Shown here: piece by piece, positions 7,646-62,911 of the stretch
Position numbering within the stretch: position 1 is the first letter of the stretch
Layout: each line of letters opens with the position of its first letter
Assembly (NCBI GenBank): GCA_021791495.1
Contig: JAJYWN010000051.1
Span: 64,219-127,129, forward strand
DNA: 62,911 bases
Direction of reading: 5' to 3'
Source of the DNA: Bacillota bacterium
Lineage (GTDB): Bacteria > Bacillota > Sulfobacillia > JAJYWN01
Notes under the pieces: model-generated
Told to the model about the DNA's origin: nothing
The model's input: the letters and a program-made list of their open reading frames with translations, nothing else
The model's database searches: none
Translations under genes and position numbers: made by a program

Positions 7646-10216
7646 CTACGCCCTTTCTACATCACCTGTCCGCCCGGCGATCTTGCGGGCGATGCCGCCC
7701 GGGTAACCGTCAGCGCGCTCGGTCCCATCGCCCTCCAACTTCTCCCGCCGCCGTCCCACCAGGAAGCTGGCCACATCATGGCCGTGGGTGCCGCGTCCGA
7801 ACCCGGCGTCAAGGCCGCACTCCACTGCCATCTCGTTAGTCACCTGCGTGCCACCCGCCACCAAGATGAACCGATCGCGCATCCCCTTTTCAGTGCAAAG
7901 ATTGGCCAGACGCCGCATGTTGATGCGGTGGATGTCGGCGTGGGTGATGATGGTGGAGATGAGGATGGCGTCGGCGTCCGTCTCGACGGCGGCGTCGATG
8001 ACCTTGTCCACCGGCACCGACGTCCCCAGGTACAGGCACTCGACGCCGAACTTCTCCAAGCCACCGTGCTTGATGTCGATGATCTCCCGCATCCCCACCG
8101 AGTGTTCGTCCTGTCCCACAGTGGCGGCCACCACCTTCATGGGATGCTCGCTGATGTCGTCCCGAATCTCGTCCTCCGACAGCGTGGCGACCGGCTCCGG
8201 GATGACCAGCTTCTCAGGGTCGACGTCAAAGGTCACACGCCCCTTGACCTCCACCACCGACCCCTCGGCCATCTGCATGATCCCAGTGTGGATTACCTCG
8301 GCGTCCTCCAGGCCCATTTTCTTGGCGATTTCCAAGGCCGCGAACTGCGCCACGCGTGGCAACGTCGGAATGAACATAGTCACGGTCACGTACCCGTCGC
8401 CGCTCCACTGCACCTCGGGGCGGAGCCGACCGCCGCCCGCGCCGGCACCCCCGTCCCAGCTAGCGCTCCCTGTGCGTCGCCGCTCCTCGGTCTCCGCCAG
8501 GCGGTTCACCACGTTGTCCTGTTCATCCAGTTCGTCAATGAAGGCGATCCTTTCGGGATTATGTAAAGTACACCCGCCGATGAGGTCGCACACGCGGCCC
8601 TTGCCGGCCGTGCCCGTCCCCGTCTCCGTCCCCATGCCCGTCCGGGTCGCCGCGCCGCCCGCGGCGTATCCGGCCGCCGAAGTCGTAGAGCCCGTGTTTG
8701 GGTTTGCGGCCCCAGGCTCAGTACCGCCGGCGATCAGGTCCTCAGGGATATGGCTGTTCCCAAAATGCTCGCACACCGGCGCGAAGTAATCGGAGTCGCG
8801 CGGGACCACCGTCCCCTGCCCCACCCCGCCCCGTAGCATCCGGACGATGCCGTCGCCGTTCCGCTCCGGGTACATGCCCGAGTCGATGAAGAAACCCTCC
8901 TCCACGGCGGCGAAGTAGCCGCCCACGTCCAGGACCTCCTGCATGAAAAGGACGGCTCGCTCTTTCAGCTCCCGCACCGTGCGCCCCATGACCCCGTCCG
9001 GGTCAAGGTCCAGTTTCACCATTTCCTTCAGCCCGTCCATGCCGACCAAGGCCTGCTTGGCAGTGTCCACCGCCGCCACGTTATTGTAGTGCCAGGGGAC
9101 ATTCCGCCCCTCGTCGGGCGTGATGGTGCTCTGGATGTCGGCGCTGGTCAGTCGGGTCACCAGAAGGTTCAGGACATGGGTGACGGTGGCCTCCCGCATG
9201 TCGGACTCCATGTAACGGGTGTTTTGCTGGGCCCGGATGCGGAAGCGGCCGAACAGCTGCCGCAAGGCGACGGCGTACGGGAGGTCCATCCGCAGGTTCG
9301 GCGCCGGCGGGGCCGTGGGCGGCACGCTAGACAAGGCGATGTTCTCCGCCGGCATGCCCACCTTCTCCGAATAGGCGCAGTTGATGGCGTGCTGCACCAT
9401 GAGTTCGGGCATGACCTTCCAAGCCTCGCGGGCCGTGGCGTTGGCGTTATGGGCCCCGTCGATCTGGACCATATCCGCCCAGGTCATCAGCTTCTTGGCC
9501 TCCGCCGCGTCGACGAAGGACCGGACCATGTTGATGTTCCGGTAGAGGACGTTATACTGTGGGTCCTGGTGCGCGCCGTTGACCCCCTCCTCGGCGAACA
9601 TCACCGCTATCTCCGGCCCCGCCACACCGCTGATGTAGGAGTGGAAGTTGATCGGCCGGCCCACCTCGTCCTCGATGAGGTCCAGAGCTTTGCGGCTGGC
9701 CCGCACCTGCTTTCGGGTGATGGGCACGCCGCCCACCCCCTCGGGCGTCCCCTCGATCAGGCCATCGAAATGGCTTTGCCCCGCCGTCCGGATGACCATG
9801 ATGTGGTCGGCCCCGTGCCAAGCCGCCATCCGCATTCGCCGCAGGTCGTCCTCGAAACGCCCGGAAGCGATCTCAGTGGTGATGACTTCCTGGGGCTGAG
9901 GGTCAAGACCGTCGAAGTACTTCGCCGCCGGCAGCGGGATGCTCTGGTCCAGAGGCGTGCCGGTCTGGAAGTAGGTGAAGGGCCCAAGGTGCTGCGGCGC
10001 CATCGCCGTCCCGCTCCCCGGCCGTTCCCGCCAATGCCAGCCCCACCGGCGCGGGCGATAGTGCTCCAGATCCTGCAGCACGCGCTCAACGTCGAGTTTC
10101 CGGTCCGGTTCGAGACGGTAGCCGTCGCCCGACTTGCCCTCGCCGCCCTTCGCCGTTCGGACCCTTTCCACGTCGCCCTTCTCGAGGTCAGCCCTGGTGC
10201 CGGTCCTTGTCTTCAT
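7646..10216 (-). CDS. oraE: D-ornithine 4,5-aminomutase, large (E) subunit
   Basis: 856 residues. The catalytic PLP/adenosylcobalamin subunit converts D-ornithine to (2R,4S)-2,4-diaminopentanoate. Visible are the conserved N-terminal half (FTYFQTGTPLDQSIPLPAAK, HADIHRINMRRLANL further on) and the B12-binding DxHxxG motif as DEHSVG at about residue 703. It is roughly 100 residues longer than I expect for the family. The excess is low-complexity sequence: an N-terminal extension and two Gly/Ser/Thr linkers encoded near 8585-8700 (GTETGTGTAG) and 8420-8480 (GGAGAGGGRL), either side of CDLIGGCTLHNPERI. The ATG at 10216 overlaps the oraS stop as ATGA. In-frame residues further upstream belong to a shadow of oraS. 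Confidence 0.93.
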   Translation of the reverse strand: MKTRTGTRADLEKGDVERVRTAKGGEGKSGDGYRLEPDRKLDVERVLQDLEHYRPRRWGWHWRERPGSGTAMAPQHLGPFTYFQTGTPLDQSIPLPAAKYFDGLDPQPQEVITTEIASGRFEDDLRRMRMAAWHGADHIMVIRTAGQSHFDGLIEGTPEGVGGVPITRKQVRASRKALDLIEDEVGRPINFHSYISGVAGPEIAVMFAEEGVNGAHQDPQYNVLYRNINMVRSFVDAAEAKKLMTWADMVQIDGAHNANATAREAWKVMPELMVQHAINCAYSEKVGMPAENIALSSVPPTAPPAPNLRMDLPYAVALRQLFGRFRIRAQQNTRYMESDMREATVTHVLNLLVTRLTSADIQSTITPDEGRNVPWHYNNVAAVDTAKQALVGMDGLKEMVKLDLDPDGVMGRTVRELKERAVLFMQEVLDVGGYFAAVEEGFFIDSGMYPERNGDGIVRMLRGGVGQGTVVPRDSDYFAPVCEHFGNSHIPEDLIAGGTEPGAANPNTGSTTSAAGYAAGGAATRTGMGTETGTGTAGKGRVCDLIGGCTLHNPERIAFIDELDEQDNVVNRLAETEERRRTGSASWDGGAGAGGGRLRPEVQWSGDGYVTVTMFIPTLPRVAQFAALEIAKKMGLEDAEVIHTGIMQMAEGSVVEVKGRVTFDVDPEKLVIPEPVATLSEDEIRDDISEHPMKVVAATVGQDEHSVGMREIIDIKHGGLEKFGVECLYLGTSVPVDKVIDAAVETDADAILISTIITHADIHRINMRRLANLCTEKGMRDRFILVAGGTQVTNEMAVECGLDAGFGRGTHGHDVASFLVGRRREKLEGDGTERADGYPGGIARKIAGRTGDVERA

Positions 10217-10587
10217 AGCCTCACCCCCGCCATGTGGATGAAGGCTTTTTCGGCTACGTCCCAAAGCTGGCCGGCGGCCAGTTCCCGTCCCGCCTCGCGA
10301 TAGTCGATCCCCTTCACCTTGGCCACCCTCAGGACCACGTGCCCGGCCCCCTTGCCGAGCAGATGCCGCTCCGCGCAGCCCTCGACGATGGCCTTGGCCT
10401 CCAGGCTGCTGAACCCCATCCGTAAAAGCACGGACCGCTCGATGGAAGGCGAAGTGTGAGTCCTCGCCAGCTCCACGAGCGGTTCGACAACGCGGTCCGT
10501 CAAGTCCCAGAATAGCCGGTGTAGTTCCCCGTCTGTAAGGTGCGCGATCCCCCGGCGACGCACGGGAAAGTCGTCTTCTCTCTGCAT
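10213..10587 (-). CDS. oraS: D-ornithine 4,5-aminomutase, small (S) subunit
   Basis: 124 residues, the expected size of OraS. It forms a heterodimer with OraE and is needed for the 4,5-amino shift. Conserved features include a helical N-terminal part (DFPVRRRGIAHLTDGELHRLFW), LLRMGFSSLEAKAIVEGC, and GAGHVVLRVAKVKG before AGRELAAGQLWD. The ATG is preceded by GGGGGGAGGG. Its TGA overlaps the oraE ATG, which implies translational coupling of the two subunits. The 142-bp gap on its 5' side holds a perfect 36-bp palindrome. Confidence 0.92.
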   Translation of the reverse strand: MQREDDFPVRRRGIAHLTDGELHRLFWDLTDRVVEPLVELARTHTSPSIERSVLLRMGFSSLEAKAIVEGCAERHLLGKGAGHVVLRVAKVKGIDYREAGRELAAGQLWDVAEKAFIHMAGVRL

Positions 10588-10631
10588 TGCGGGCCCTCCC
10601 CCCGATCGGAGGTAGGTCGCTTCTCTGGCGC

Positions 10632-10667
10632 CCTTTCACACTTTCACAATTGTGAAAGTGTGAAAGG
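10632..10667. promoter_or_regulatory. perfect 36-bp palindrome between ortB and oraS
   Basis: Every base from 10632 to 10667 pairs with its mirror, centred on AATT at 10648-10651. Each arm is itself two tandem copies of CTTTCACA, so the site reads as two nested dyads. In RNA it would form a 16-bp stem with an AATT tetraloop. No U-run follows on the minus strand, so it is not a classical terminator. It is AT-richer than its surroundings. Candidate roles are a repressor operator for an internal oraS promoter, or an RNA processing/stability stem that sets ortAB against oraSE levels. Confidence 0.85.
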
Positions 10668-10729
10668 CCGGAAAAGAACACTACCTCTCTCCTCGGTTCC
10701 TGAGTGGGAGGAGGGGCGCCCGACCCGGG

Positions 10730-26700: not shown

Positions 26701-27174
26701 CTAGATCACCTCCGCTTTTCCACCAGCGGCTTCGATCTTTTCTACCTTCCCACCAGCAGCCTCGATCTTCTGAATGGCGCTCTGGCTGAACCGGTGCGCC
26801 TTCACGGTCAAGGCTTTCTCGATGTCGCCCCCGCCCAGGACGACGACGCCGTCCAGGACGTGACGGATGATCCGCTTATCCAGAAACTCTTCGGGCCCCA
26901 CCACGCTGCCGGCGTCGAAGACGTTCAGCGAACCGACGTTCAGTTCGACGAAGTCGGCGCGGAAACGAGCGTTATTGAAACCGCGCTTGGGGAAGCGGCG
27001 GCTCATGGGCGTCTGGCCGCCCTCGAAACCGGGGCGGATGTGCGGGCCGGAGCGGGCCTTCTGGCCCTTATGGCCGTAACCCGCGGTCTTTCCCAGCCCC
27101 GAACCCAGGCCGCGACCCACGCGGCGGCGGGTCGTCTTCGCTCCGGGGGGCGGGGCGAGCTCGTTCAGTTTCAT
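26701..27174 (-). CDS. rplO: 50S ribosomal protein L15
   Basis: 157 residues. The Gly/Arg-rich N-terminus (RRVGRGLGSGLGKTAGYGHK) and the globular part (FPKRGFNNARFRADFVELNV, LTVKAHRFSQSAIQKIEAAGG) are normal. The C-terminus carries an extra copy of the IEAAGGK unit: IEAAGGK-VEK-IEAAGGK-AEVI. That is a roughly 30-bp in-frame tandem duplication at 26710-26770. It overlaps rpmD by 4 bp and abuts secY. Confidence 0.96.
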   Translation of the reverse strand: MKLNELAPPPGAKTTRRRVGRGLGSGLGKTAGYGHKGQKARSGPHIRPGFEGGQTPMSRRFPKRGFNNARFRADFVELNVGSLNVFDAGSVVGPEEFLDKRIIRHVLDGVVVLGGGDIEKALTVKAHRFSQSAIQKIEAAGGKVEKIEAAGGKAEVI

Positions 27175-27365
27175 GCCTGTCCCTCCTCCACCGGGGTGAC
27201 CTTGACCAGGTGGGAGACCTTGTCAATCATCCCCCGGATGCTGGGCGTGTCCTCTTGCACGACCGAACTGTGGGTCTTGCCCAGCCCGAGTGTGCGGACG
27301 ACGACCTTCTGATCCGCCCGCTTCCCGGCCAGCCCTTTTACTAGAGTGATCTTGATTTTGCCCAT
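27171..27365 (-). CDS. rpmD: 50S ribosomal protein L30
   Basis: 64 residues from ATG 27365 (MGKIKITLVKGLAGKRADQK), preceded by GGGAGG at 9 nt. The TLGLGKTHSSVVQEDTPSIR block is diagnostic. The longer frame upstream runs through the 95-bp GC-rich repeat and is not coding. It is separated from rpsE by 133 bp, an unusually wide gap in this operon, because of that repeat. Confidence 0.96.
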   Translation of the reverse strand: MGKIKITLVKGLAGKRADQKVVVRTLGLGKTHSSVVQEDTPSIRGMIDKVSHLVKVTPVEEGQA

Positions 27366-27396: not shown

Positions 27397-27489
27397 AGTT
27401 CAGGCGCGGGGGCCGGGGTCCCGCAGCCGCCGGCGCAGCCGGACCGAGCCCGGCGGAGCGTTCGTGCGGCGGAGGGTGTGGCCCCCACC
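27397..27489 (-). repeat. copy of the ~95-bp hairpin repeat between rpsE and rpmD
   Basis: The segment is the reverse orientation of the tandem repeat at the window's right end. It has the same start AGTTCAGG, the GGGGGCCGGGGTCC block, the central GCCGCCGGCGCAGCCGG and the CCCGGCGGAGCG blocks, and ends GGCCCCCACC. It has diverged at several positions. The arms can fold into a long GC-rich stem. It is placed in the middle of the S10-spc operon, 31 bp upstream of the rpmD start. Confidence 0.85.
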
Positions 27490-27498
27490 CTAATCGAC

Positions 27499-36035: not shown

Positions 36036-37223
<1,188 letters not shown>

Positions 37224-37324: not shown

Positions 37325-37440
37325 CAACTTGGTGGGGGCCGCTTGAACTTGGTGGGGGCCGCACTCTCCGCCACCTGAACACTTCGCCAGGCGAAGCCTG
37401 GCTGCGCTGGTGGCTACGAGGCTCCGGCCCCCACACCCCC
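37325..37440 (+). repeat. copy of the ~95-bp hairpin repeat upstream of tuf, with a partial duplicate
   Basis: From 37345 the sequence follows the window-end repeat: GAACTTGGTGGGGGCCGC, a CTCCGCC block, a central dyad (CGCCAGGCGAAGCCTGGC), a GCGCTGGTGGCTAC block and GGCCCCCACACC. The arms are diverged in a compensatory way in the central dyad. A 20-bp partial copy of its left end precedes it (37325-37344). Orientation is the same as at the clpC end and opposite to the rpmD copy. Confidence 0.85.
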
Positions 37441-45887: not shown

Positions 45888-47441
45888 ATGGAGGTGTTCG
45901 CCTTGGTGTTCCGGATCCTGGATGTCCTGATCGCTACGGTATTCGCCGGCTGCCTGGTTTTCTGGCTTTGGGCCGAATTAGTGTTCTACCAGGCCGTGAG
46001 AGCTTACATCGATCAAGACCCTCTGCACCCCACCGCCCCTACCCTGGATGGCTTCCCCCGCCCCACGAAAGCCCTGGCCCGTTTCTGGCTCGGCCCGGCG
46101 GAAAAGAAGCAAGGTGTCTTGTCGTGGGACGAGAAGATGGCCGTCGTCCGCCGCTACCGTTGGACTGAAGTGCTGTTCGCGGGGTTGGCCTTGCTGGTCT
46201 TCCTCGCCGGCCTATGGCGGTTCTGGCAGGGTGACCAAGGTGGCTTGCTGTCTTTGAGCGCCTCTTCCAAACGGCAAGCATCACAACCGATCGCCGCGAT
46301 ACAGCTGAGCATCTCCCGGCACCCGCTGATAGCTGACTTTTCGCGAACGGGGCGCTCCCTCCCAGAGACGGTCGACCCCTATTCCAGTGACCCTTCGCAA
46401 GTGGATGTCCGAAGCAAGGACCTGACTTCGATGGATTTGAGCGGCCGGGGATCCGTCCTGGCTTTCGCGAACTTTGACTCTAAGACCAAATGGCCTGACA
46501 AGGACAAGATGCCACCCGATTTCAAACCCGAGACGGTGATGGAAACGGGAAAGAACCCCGGTCTGGGCCTGGCGTCCGTCCATGCGGCCGGGATAACGGG
46601 CAAGGGTGTCGGCATCGCCATCATCGACCAGGCGCTGTTAGTGGACCACGCCGAATACAAGGCCGAGCTACGGCACTATGAGGAGATCCACTGGCCGGCG
46701 CAATACCCGACCGCCACGATGCACGGAGCGGCCGTGGCCTCCATAGCCGTCGGCAAGACGGTGGGGGTCGCTCCGGACGCGGATCTGTATTACATTGCTG
46801 AGCAGCACACTTCTTTCGAACCCCCTTATGACCTTGACTTCATTCCGCTGGCCCAATCCATTGAACGGGTTCTCCAAATCAACCAGACGCTGCCGAAAGA
46901 GAACAAGATCAGAGTGATTTCGATCTCCCGAGGATGGGCTCCGACAGATAGGGGTTACGCCGAAGTCACAAGAGCTGTCAACAAGGCGAAATCCCAGGGG
47001 GTTTTCGTGGTCAGTTCGTCGGTGGCGCAGACCCACGGGCTCTCCTTCCACGGATTGGGCCGCGATCCACTGGCCTCCCCGGAAAAGCCTGAATCTTATG
47101 GCCCCGGGTCTTGGTGGGCCAAGGACTTCTACGACGGGCGATACCCTAACGTCGAAAGGGGCGACGTGCTCCTGGTCCCCATGGACTCACGGACCACGGC
47201 CAGCCCCACCGGAACAGAGGACTACGTCTTCTATCGCTCGGGCGGCTGGAGCTGGTCCATTCCCTACATCGCCGGCCTTTACGCCCTGGCATGCCAGGTA
47301 GACCCGAAAGTGACACCCGATTCCTTCTGGGACGCCGCGCTGGCCACGGGCGACACGGTGGATATCGATGCGGGCGGCCGTGTCGTCCACATGGGGAGAG
47401 TGGTGAACCCCGCCGCCCTAATCAAGAGACTCTCCAAATAG
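45888..47441 (+). CDS. membrane-anchored S8 (subtilisin-like) serine peptidase
   Basis: 517 residues. Two hydrophobic segments (about 5-30 and 100-120) precede a subtilase domain from ~residue 220. The triad is GIAIIDQALLVDH (Asp), ATMHGAAVASIAVG (His) and SGGWSWSIPYIAG (Ser, equivalent to GTSMAxPxxAG). The oxyanion-hole Asn region reads VVSSSVAQ, without the usual Asn, and the Ser block is noncanonical, so activity or specificity may be altered. The start is ambiguous: ATG 45888 overlaps GGAGG, while TTG/GTG codons 15-18 nt later are better spaced. The 3' 80 residues are duplicated downstream. Confidence 0.8.
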   Translation: MEVFALVFRILDVLIATVFAGCLVFWLWAELVFYQAVRAYIDQDPLHPTAPTLDGFPRPTKALARFWLGPAEKKQGVLSWDEKMAVVRRYRWTEVLFAGLALLVFLAGLWRFWQGDQGGLLSLSASSKRQASQPIAAIQLSISRHPLIADFSRTGRSLPETVDPYSSDPSQVDVRSKDLTSMDLSGRGSVLAFANFDSKTKWPDKDKMPPDFKPETVMETGKNPGLGLASVHAAGITGKGVGIAIIDQALLVDHAEYKAELRHYEEIHWPAQYPTATMHGAAVASIAVGKTVGVAPDADLYYIAEQHTSFEPPYDLDFIPLAQSIERVLQINQTLPKENKIRVISISRGWAPTDRGYAEVTRAVNKAKSQGVFVVSSSVAQTHGLSFHGLGRDPLASPEKPESYGPGSWWAKDFYDGRYPNVERGDVLLVPMDSRTTASPTGTEDYVFYRSGGWSWSIPYIAGLYALACQVDPKVTPDSFWDAALATGDTVDIDAGGRVVHMGRVVNPAALIKRLSK

Positions 47442-47511
47442 GCCTATAGGAGTTCATCGGCGGTTTCTCGTTCCATTTGGGGAATGGAGGCGTCCGCCCC
47501 GTGACGCAGGT

Positions 47512-47778
47512 ACTGGTTTCCTGATCCGCAGCCTGATGTTCCCAACGGGGGAGGAGGACTACGTCTTCTATCGGTCGGGTGGGCTTAGCTGGGCCATACC
47601 CTATGTCGCTGGGTTGTACGCGCTGGCCTGTCAGGTAGATCCAGAGATAACGCCCTGGACGTTTTGGAGGACCGCCCTGGCAACCGGCGATTTCGTTCGC
47701 GGCCAATCCGGTGGGCGGGTGTTACGTTTCGGCAAAGTGGTGAACCCGGCTGCCCTTATGGCGAAGCTGCAGAGGTAG
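47512..47778 (+). pseudogene. 3' fragment of a second subtilase copy
   Basis: About 80 residues closely match the end of the preceding peptidase: EEDYVFYRSGGLSWAIPYVA, GLYALACQVDPEITPWTFW, GGRVLRFGKVVNPAALMAKL. It keeps the active-site Ser block but lacks the rest of the enzyme. Upstream of about 47512 the similarity fades. It is best read as what remains after tandem duplication and deletion. The in-frame ATG at 47536 has no good ribosome-binding site. Confidence 0.75.
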
Positions 47779-47880: not shown

Positions 47881-47952
47881 AGCTGGTGGTCGGGCTCGAA
47901 CCGACAACCTGCTGATTACAAATCAGCTGCTCCGCCATTGAGCTACACCAGC
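47881..47952 (-). tRNA. tRNA-Thr (anticodon UGU)
   Basis: 72 nt. The acceptor is GCTGGTG/CACCAGC. The anticodon stem GCTGA/TCAGC encloses TTTGTAA, giving UGU, and the T-loop contains GTTCGAGC. CCA is not encoded. In many Bacillota this tRNA lies between sigH and rpmG-secE-nusG; here the downstream side is accessory. Confidence 0.94.
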
Positions 47953-60137: not shown

Positions 60138-62699
60138 TCACGGCTCTGGGGTCTCCTCCGACGGAGGTGCCGCCTTGGACCCGCCGCCCGCCGCGGCTAC
60201 CCCGGCCACCTCCCCCGGTCCCTTGTCCGCTTCCCGGAAGATGATGCTGTCATCCACCATGTCCACCACGACCCGAGACCCCGGCGGGAAGCGGCCCTTC
60301 AGCATCTCCTCCGACAGGGGGTCCTCCACATGCCGCTGGATGGCCCGGCGGATGGGCCTGGCCCCGTAGGTGGGGTCGTACCCGGCCTTCGCCAGGAACT
60401 CGCGGGCCGCCGGCGTGACATCCAGATGAACCTCGTGTTCGGTCAGCCGACTCTCGACTTCCCGCAGTTGCAGGTCGACGATACTCTGGAGTTCCTCCTC
60501 GGTCAACTGGTGGAAAACGATGATCTCGTCCACACGGTTCAGGAATTCCGGCCGGAAGGTCCGCTTCAGCTCTTCCAGGACCTTGTCCTTCATAGCATCA
60601 TAGGCGGCCTTCATATCGTTTTGCGCATGGAACCCGAAGGCCGTGTCGCGCTTGATGGTCGTGGCCCCCACGTTCGCCGTCATGATGATGACCGTGTTCC
60701 GGAAGTCCACCGCGCGCCCCTGGGCGTCCGTCAGCCGGCCGTCCTCCAGGATCTGCAGGAGGATATTGAAGGCTTCGGGGTGGGCTTTTTCGATCTCGTC
60801 AAAAAGCACCACCGAGTAAGGCTTGCGCCGGACGGCCTCCGTCAACTGGCCGCCCTCGTCGTACCCCACATAACCCGGTGGTGCGCCCACCAGCCGCGAA
60901 ACATTGTGCCGCTCCATATACTCCGACATGTCCAGGCGGATAACGGCGTCCTCATCTCCGAACATGGCCTCGCCCAAGGCGCGCGCCAACTCGGTCTTGC
61001 CCACCCCCGTGGGCCCTAAGAAGATGAAGGAACCCACCGGTCGCTTGGGGTTTTTCAGCCCCGAACGCGCCCGCCGCATGGCCCGCGACACGGCGCGGAC
61101 CGCTTCCTCCTGGCCGATGATGCGCTTATGCAGCTCCTCCTCCAGGTGGAGCAGGCGTTCCGCCTCTTCCACCGCCAACTGCTTGACGGGGATCCCCGTC
61201 CAACTGGCGACGATTTGGGCGATGTCCTCGGCGGTGACCGTGGTCTGCCCACGGACCTGCTTCTTCTCCCACTCGCCCTTGGCCGTCTCCAGCTTCTCTC
61301 GGAGCTTCTGCTCCTCGTCCCGCAAACGCGCGGCCTTCTCGAACTCCTGGCTCTGGACGGCCGCCTCCTTCTCCTTCCGGGCTTCCTCCACTTGCTTCTC
61401 CAAGGCTTTCAAGTCCGGTGGCGCCGTGATGGTGCGCAGCCGTACGCGCGATGCCGCCTCGTCCATGAGGTCGATGGCCTTATCGGGGAGGAAACGGTCG
61501 GCCACGTAGCGATCCGACAGCTTGACCGCCGACGCCAAAGCTTCGTCGGAGATCTTCACCCGGTGATGGGCCTCATACCGGTCCCGCAAGCCTTGAAGGA
61601 TGAGGAGGGCCTCCTCCACCGTGGGCTCTTCGACCATGATGGGCTGGAACCGCCGCTCCAGGGCCGGGTCCTTTTCCACGTGCTTCCGGTACTCGTTCAG
61701 CGTCGTGGCCCCGATGGCCTGTAGTTCACCGCGGGCCAGGGCGGGTTTGAGGATGTTGGCGGCGTCGATGGCTCCTTCCGCCGCCCCGGCGCCGATGATG
61801 GTGTGCATCTCATCGATGAAGAGGATGACATCGCCGGAATTCCGGATTTCCTCCATGACCTTTTTCAGCCGTTCCTCGAACTCGCCGCGGTACTTGGATC
61901 CCGCCACCACCGAAGCCAGGTCCAGCGTCACCAGGCGCCGGTTGGCCAAGGTCTCCGGAACCTTGCTGGCCACGATGCGCTGGGCCAACCCCTCGGCGAT
62001 GGCCGTCTTACCCACGCCGGGTTCGCCGATGAGCACCGGGTTGTTCTTCGTCCGGCGCGACAGGATCTGGATGACCCGTTCGATTTCCTTATCCCGACCT
62101 ACCACGGGGTCGGTCTTTCCGTCCCGGGCCAGAGCGGTCAGGTCCCGCCCGAAGGAATCCAGGGCGGGGGTCTTTGACTTCGGCGTCCGCCCCGCCGGCG
62201 CGCCGCCGCCCGCCGCCGGGCCGCTGGTAGCGGAAGCCTGTCCGACCAGAAGCTGCATCACCTGGGCGCGGACCTTCTCCAGGTCGGCCCCCATGTTCGT
62301 CAGCACCTTGGCGGCCACGCCTTCGCCCTCGTGGATGAGGCCTAAAAGCAGATGCTCCGTGCCGATGTAGTTGTGGCCTAGAAGGCGCGCTTCTTCGATG
62401 GCCAACTCGAACAGGACCCTTTTGGCCCGTGGAGTCAGTCCGATTTCTCCCGACGGAGGAGCGTCTCCGCCGCGGCCGATGATTTTCTCCACCTCGGACC
62501 GCACCCGCTGCAGTTCGATGCCCATCGACTGCAGCGCGCGGGCTCCCACTCCCTCGCCTTCGCGGATCAGGCCCAGCAGCAGGTGCTCCGTTCCGATGAA
62601 ACCGTAGTTATGGCGCTTGGCCTCTTCCTGGGCCAGGACGACGACCTTCTGCGCCTTTTCCGTAAAACGACCCAAAGGTCCGGACGGACCTGGCAGCAT
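60138..62699 (-). CDS. clpC: ATP-dependent Clp protease ATP-binding subunit ClpC
   Basis: 853 residues. Two Clp_N repeats ([40 protein letters not shown]) are followed by AAA-1 with GEPGVGKTA, a UVR/M domain ([19 protein letters not shown]), AAA-2 with GPTGVGKTE, and a Clp C-terminal domain. The extended Ala/Gly-rich linker ([16 protein letters not shown]) and the C-terminal tail are low-complexity. It unfolds substrates for ClpP. The ATG is preceded by AAAGGGGG at 8 nt. The usual upstream ctsR-mcsA-mcsB lie outside the window, beyond the 95-bp repeats. Confidence 0.96.
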
Positions 62700-62716
62700 T
62701 CGTTGTACCCCCTTTT

Positions 62717-62911
62717 GAACTTGGTGGGGTCCGCTCCCTCCGCCGCCCCTAACGCTCCGCCGGGCTTAGCCCGGCTGCGCCGGCGGCTACAGGACCCCGG
62801 CCCCCACACCTGAACTTGGTGGGGTCCGCTCCCTCCGCCGCCCCTAACGCTCCGCCGGGCTTAGCCCGGCTGCGCCGGCGGCTACAGGACCCCGGCCCCC
62901 ACACCTGAACT
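62717..62911 (+). repeat. perfect tandem array of a 95-bp GC-rich repeat, running off the window
   Basis: Two identical 95-bp units (62717-62811 and 62812-62906) are followed by the first five bases of a third. Each unit starts GAACTTGGTGGGGTCC and ends GGACCCCGGCCCCCACACCT, so its ends are partly complementary. The centre holds GCCGGGCTTAGCCCGGC and CCGCCGG/CCGGCGG dyads. Diverged single copies lie at 27397-27489 and 37325-37440. There are no unique spacers, so it is not a CRISPR array. It directly precedes the clpC ribosome-binding site. Confidence 0.95.

Follow-up and report, generated by a model that had tools for sequence, protein, structure and literature searches.

A dispersed palindromic repeat placed before Shine-Dalgarno sequences in a Bacillota genome: a probable lineage-specific mobile element

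A 95-bp unit that occurs in tandem upstream of clpC was found to belong to a family of long hairpins dispersed through the whole draft genome, and we consider it quite probable that this unit is a lineage-specific, non-autonomous, palindromic mobile element. Its most telling features, both new with respect to the preliminary description of this region, are 1) the placement of the unit 5′ of the Shine-Dalgarno sequence in one orientation, and 2) the in-frame inserts in the protein genes aspS and gpmI. As the closest relatives are of the same order only and offer no same-species pair of occupied and empty sites, we infer mobility from the distribution and nesting of the copies.

Copies in the window and in the genome

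The window, that is, the whole 62,911-bp stretch of DNA analysed, contained the following units and neighbouring features:

62716..62810, plus strand: unit 1 upstream of clpC, full 95 bp, in the majority orientation (the clpC-sense strand, minus, carries the unit's reverse complement)
62811..62905, plus strand: unit 2 upstream of clpC, full, head to tail with unit 1 and 100% identical to it
62906..62911, plus strand: further unit upstream of clpC, initial bases TGAACT only; the window and contig C28 (127129) stop here
62708..62713, minus strand: clpC Shine-Dalgarno AGGGGG, 4 nt from the array, predicted to be 0.83 unpaired in the native context
60138..62699, minus strand: clpC, the gene 3′ of the array, with domains Clp_N, AAA, ClpB_D2-small and UVR
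27402..27494, minus strand: one unit between rpsE and rpmD, minority orientation (the unit strand is the gene-sense strand), 80.4 bits
27499..27999, minus strand: rpsE, stopping 4 nt short of the unit and 69-72% identical to its orthologues in three genomes of the order
27171..27365, minus strand: rpmD, starting 42 nt past the rpsE-rpmD unit
37344..37440, plus strand: full unit between the tRNA genes and tuf, in the majority orientation relative to tuf, 103.7 bits
37324..37343, plus strand: 20-bp partial unit abutting the full tuf unit, an arrangement seen at 7 sites genome-wide
36036..37223, minus strand: tuf, starting about 122 nt downstream of the unit

All three loci had been reported in the preliminary description, and the two identical end-to-end units at the window edge, the diverged opposite-strand copy between rpsE and rpmD (90% complementarity to the clpC unit over 67 nt) and the tuf copy with its partial duplicate were each confirmed. 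The terminal motifs of the unit gave 4 matches in the window, against 0.14 expected from shuffled windows. Since the contig stops six bases into a further unit, the clpC array is longer than is visible. Two other repeats were noticed in the window: a pair of blocks about 337 bp apart (47204-47759), 70-71% identical over 150 and 50 nt, located partly outside long ORFs near a tRNA gene at 47881-47952, and an inverted repeat (10621-10678) with 29-nt arms, no spacer and 86% complementarity at the start of the minus-strand ORF 7646-10681.

A search of the whole draft genome (4.2 Mb, 81 contigs) revealed that the unit is not restricted to these three loci, with 54 matches by a BLAST-type and a covariance-model search alike, the latter comprising 48 full-length matches, 4 partial ones and 2 reverse-strand echoes. 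The copies were located at 32 sites, each with 1-4 head-to-tail units, and the units of every cluster were on one strand; for this count, the end of contig C25 was merged with the start of C17 (infB-rbfA), and the end of C41 with the start of C31. Several arrays lie at contig ends, so the copy counts are minima.

Outside this genome, the unit was not found in 60 relatives, the nearest of them of the same order, apart from one 35-bp match at chance level, and neither unit nor structural model was found, under stricter filters, in 153 other genomes of the class and 397 others sampled from the phylum. A GTDB pattern scan returned four matches, all in coding sequence with unrelated interiors and none fitting the unit profile; the IMG/VR viral contigs scanned contained no unit; and Rfam 15 detected only tRNAs in the window, with nothing but chance hits at the units in a permissive search of the three loci. 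The unit is so far known from one genome, and a lineage-specific element is the best reading of this distribution. Corresponding sites in relatives were empty. The rpsL-rpsG gap, which here holds two units ending directly before GGAGG, measures 23-26 nt in three genomes of the order and contains GGAGG or GGGGG but not the unit; the rpsE-rpmD gap of order-level relatives is likewise without the unit.

A long hairpin with covarying stems

The complementary ends and internal dyads noted in the preliminary description proved real on folding, each unit forming one long interrupted hairpin of -50 to -59 kcal/mol. The imperfect terminal inverted repeats (GGTGGGGGCCG / CGGCCCCCACACC) make a terminal helix of 9 pairs with a 2-nt bulge, in which 96.9% of the cells were paired. 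In 45 aligned copies, the consensus had 26 pairs with 97.8% of pair cells standard, and two-sided compensatory changes were found in 9 of the 26 pairs, compared with 2.7 in shuffles and 1-4 in slid controls, with a covariation score of 0.108 versus 0.067. In 500 shuffles, neither the pairing nor the two-sided changes nor the covariation score of the real alignment was reached. The slid control, unlike the shuffle, corrects for relatedness; the covariation is genuine. Examples among the copies include GCCGGGC/GCCCGGC, GTCGGGC/GCCCGAC, GCCAGGC/GCCTGGC, GCCGAGC/GCTCGGC and GCTACC/GGTAGC. The tuf copy, as previously suspected, retains its central dyad through such changes, having GCCAGGC/GCCTGGC and GCCACC/GGTGGC in place of GCCGGGC/GCCCGGC and GCCGCC/GGCGGC.

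Covariation alone would also fit a functional RNA. One-sided pair changes comprised 17 G-U versus 7 A-C cells, or 10 versus 7 when one recurrent column was removed; as this is no clear strand preference, either single-stranded DNA or RNA could be the molecule under constraint. An intrinsic terminator was rejected because the gene-proximal end of the hairpin carries no T-run.

Position and orientation relative to genes

Mapping against operon joints revealed a strong link. Typically, the unit's reverse complement reads AGGGGGTGTGGGGGCC ... GGCCACCACCAAGTT, followed within a few bases by a Shine-Dalgarno sequence and the next start. At 17 of the 30 non-coding sites, a start codon followed at a distance of 2-23 nt and the unit immediately preceded the Shine-Dalgarno sequence, whereas uniform placement in intergenic DNA, modelled on 20 random 20-kb stretches of the same genome, would put 6.8% within 25 nt of a downstream start (p = 8e-13). 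Thirteen of these sites are given below and four further ones make up the 17; since gene starts were called by a simple codon-usage method, single distances may be off, while Shine-Dalgarno tracts and some of the upstream gene partners were recognised by eye from the sequence.

nusA-rnpM: unit 13 nt before start
infB-rbfA: unit 13 nt before start
ftsH: unit 21 nt before start
divIVA: unit 15 nt before start
clpC: unit 18 nt before start
smc: unit 14 nt before start
tsf: unit 15 nt before start
rpsL-rpsG: unit 13 nt before start
flaG: unit 16 nt before start
atpG: unit 2 nt before start, no separate Shine-Dalgarno tract recognised
prfB (L058:2059-2334): unit about 15 nt before likely GTG start
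ymdB-type gene (TIGR00282): unit 23 nt before start
gamma-glutamyltransferase (L045): unit 16 nt before start

For prfB, the caller's start was 187 nt from the unit, and the model matched from position 52 on. As prfB usually has an upstream frameshift, with which the 170-nt offset of the called ORF agrees, the GTG about 15 nt away is the likelier start, and the gene was counted among the 17.

The preliminary description had the unit in both orientations. This holds for the three loci of the window, but genome-wide there was a strong bias: all 17 start-proximal sites shared one orientation (p = 1.5e-5), and 22 sites in codirectional gaps had the majority orientation versus 4 with the other (p = 5e-4), the few exceptions being rpsE-rpmD, rplL-rpoB, L039 and the dnaE end. 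Two sites lie between convergent genes. At rplL-rpoB (L033:1960-2110; G000 C11), it was also noticed that the unit is adjacent to a terminator-like hairpin and that a 15-bp direct repeat, GCCAGGACTTGCCGC, occurs at a distance on both sides, possibly as a duplicated terminator arm.

When 16 leaders were folded, the Shine-Dalgarno core had a mean unpaired probability of 0.42 natively, 0.50 once the array was deleted (not significant) and 0.25 once it was flipped (p = 0.018); a flipped unit would put CCCCCU beside the Shine-Dalgarno sequence. In view of this predicted loss of accessibility, selection for usable starts can explain the orientation. A strand-specific target could also explain it, and these data do not separate the two.

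Two of the 32 sites were fully coding. In aspS (L059), the only aspS found in the genome, two in-frame units add about 62 aa between VEDRG and VRSPIAKF when compared with the solved AspRS structure 4wj3, and in gpmI, a single unit in the opposite orientation adds about 43 aa in frame (compared with 1ejj); the dnaE reading frame terminates inside a unit (L041). Chance leaves about 61% of unit frames open, so that an open frame by itself says little for selection. The intact frames of two housekeeping genes across the inserts indicate that these are translated, and the inserts in aspS and gpmI show that units entered genes that already existed. The two aspS units are read in different frames, which argues against one conserved peptide.

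At the 7 sites with a partial copy, the initial 17-20 bases of a second unit stand in front of the unit, always with one fixed break point (GGCCGC, then TTG or a variant), and at L041 the interrupted unit survives as two halves. This break point, read on the gene-sense strand, lies within a Shine-Dalgarno-like GGAGGGA. Because it involves no gene start, the nesting favours a preference for such tracts over selection alone, and suggests that the target is preferred irrespective of gene expression. Identity between units was mostly 94-100% within arrays and mostly 78-94% between sites (median 87%), which suggests that most array growth is local copying.

Proposed movement of the unit and its relation to known repeats

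Taken as a non-autonomous mobile element, the unit would be moved in trans by machinery whose probable recognition target is the folded single strand. Insertion, or persistence, of new copies would occur chiefly just upstream of purine-rich Shine-Dalgarno-like tracts in short operon gaps, in the orientation that leaves the ribosome-binding site usable; re-landing inside or beside earlier copies would give nested units and head-to-tail arrays, which slippage or recombination may then even out. The rare copies in protein genes would survive when the reading frame is kept (aspS, gpmI, the dnaE tail), and those in operons would be transcribed as very stable intercistronic hairpins. A bolder extension, which we offer tentatively, is that the integration machinery itself targets Shine-Dalgarno-like purine tracts strand-specifically, possibly via the transcript or the single-stranded DNA of highly expressed operons, and so may have colonised the translation initiation regions of core operons and created intercistronic mRNA hairpins genome-wide.

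The size, imperfect terminal inverted repeats, dispersal and one-genome distribution would also suit a classical MITE, in other words a DNA transposon that has lost its interior but is still moved in trans by a complete IS sharing its ends. We regard this as rather unlikely, since no consistent target-site duplication was found in the flanks of the 32 sites (order-level relatives being the ones available for comparison), the 81-contig draft contained neither a longer element with both unit ends nor a same-strand pair of left and right ends at transposon distance, and the hairpin takes up the entire length, not the ends alone, and its internal stems covary. MITEs such as ERIC, RUP and Correia/NEMIS are 100-200 bp long and are co-transcribed, the transcribed copies forming a long stem-loop, and the orientation of ERIC affects transcript stability (PMC2229807). 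The unit has terminal inverted repeats like these, but differs in that neither a TA target duplication nor a parent IS was found in the draft genome, and in its strong pre-Shine-Dalgarno placement. A full unit flanked on each side by one and the same hexamer, CTCCCT, was seen at a single site (L040:1982-2161) and may represent a target duplication.

Alternatively, the unit could be a cis-acting RNA whose hairpin is retained because it governs how the mRNA of the following cistron is processed, stabilised or translated, its copies multiplying by duplication as selection favours that role. The fixed orientation and spacing before the Shine-Dalgarno sequence, the compensatory stem changes, the predicted accessibility in the native orientation and the many core translation and energy operons involved (rpsG, tsf, infB/rbfA, nusA/rnpM, atpG, prfB, ftsH, clpC, smc) all agree with such a role. 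Yet other downstream genes are functionally mixed (oppB, hutU, flaG, GntR, peptidase, gamma-glutamyltransferase), some copies are antisense (rpsE-rpmD, rplL-rpoB, L039), coding, nested or between convergent genes, the stem changes show no clear RNA-strand preference, and neither an Rfam family nor a relative in the order or class matched. We therefore consider a cis-acting RNA unlikely.

A REP/BIME-type repeat, mobilised by a RAYT acting on single-stranded hairpins, is highly improbable. REP, BIME and REPIN sequences are GC-rich imperfect palindromes with complementary changes, species specific and extragenic (PMC2817692), and the unit resembles them in all these traits; moreover, IS200/IS605-family Y1 transposases are present in the genome. 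However, the unit is about 95 bp rather than 20-40 bp long, is arranged head to tail instead of alternating, lacks the short palindrome headed by GT(A/G)G that is typical of REP (PMC2817692), and was nowhere found flanking a transposase. The best match in the genome to the RAYT model NF047646 scored 32.3 bits against a curated cut-off of 80, and no unit was found in the loci of six Y1 transposase matches. On two defining features, a cognate RAYT and alternating orientation, this class is thus largely refuted. The IS200/IS605 Y1 transposases were likewise rejected as the source, their ends being different and no unit being nearby. Copies of IS200/IS605 with tnpA and tnpB-like genes were observed at L070, L071, L072 and L074, several at contig ends, and the L070 tnpA has an in-frame TAA.

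The preliminary reading of the unit, as a REP/MITE-like or RNA-structural element tolerated or used within operons, thus stands in so far as the unit is dispersed, structured, mobile-like and tolerated in ribosomal and stress operons, but not for REP, given the lack of a RAYT above the curated cut-off and of any unit beside a Y1 transposase, and the head-to-tail arrangement, while a MITE is unproven. An assembly or contamination artefact can be set aside almost completely: although contig ends hold several of the arrays and contamination of the bin is estimated at 4.2%, many contigs, long ones among them, carry units in their interior next to housekeeping genes (ribosomal, ATP synthase, tRNA synthetases), the unit sequence diverges between sites, and a short-read assembly would break contigs at repeats anyway.

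Among known repeats, MIRU, as reportedly described by Supply et al. in 1997, are short head-to-tail tandem repeats in codirectional gene gaps, mostly in one orientation. The unit is similar, as it lies in tandem between codirectional genes mainly in one orientation (22 versus 4). MIRU are placed so that downstream gene expression is spared, and they insert at start codons, carrying an ORF that overlaps the next start with -4 nt spacing (PMC12548453). In contrast, the unit stops 2-23 nt short of the start, with an intact Shine-Dalgarno sequence directly after it and no start-codon insertion or overlapping ORF of this kind; it is also a single long hairpin from another phylum (the gene content here is Bacillota-like), MIRU being compared by description.

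RPE, similarly compared by description, are 105-150 bp long with a long stem-loop, inverted-repeat ends and unclear target duplication, and are found in intergenic regions and in-frame in conserved protein genes (PMC2229807, PMC10969869). The palindromic unit is likewise in-frame in conserved protein genes (aspS, gpmI), though rarely so, 2 of the 32 sites being fully coding. We know of no Shine-Dalgarno-adjacent head-to-tail arrays of RPE. The TAACTGA direct repeats of Beggiatoaceae differ in being seven-base repeats that overlap or replace the Shine-Dalgarno sequence and have no long hairpin. The unit therefore resembles MIRU and RPE but fits the definition of neither, and is best read as a short palindromic mobile repeat.

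This family provides a clean test set, in another phylum, for how MIRU- and RPE-like repeats move, its assets being precise landing before the Shine-Dalgarno sequence, a single orientation, nesting that reveals the target, and in-frame copies in essential enzymes. If the placement is targeted, the unit would be a site-specific mobile element exploiting a sequence that most bacterial genes must keep; if it is selected, the family would be a natural experiment on what operon leaders can tolerate.
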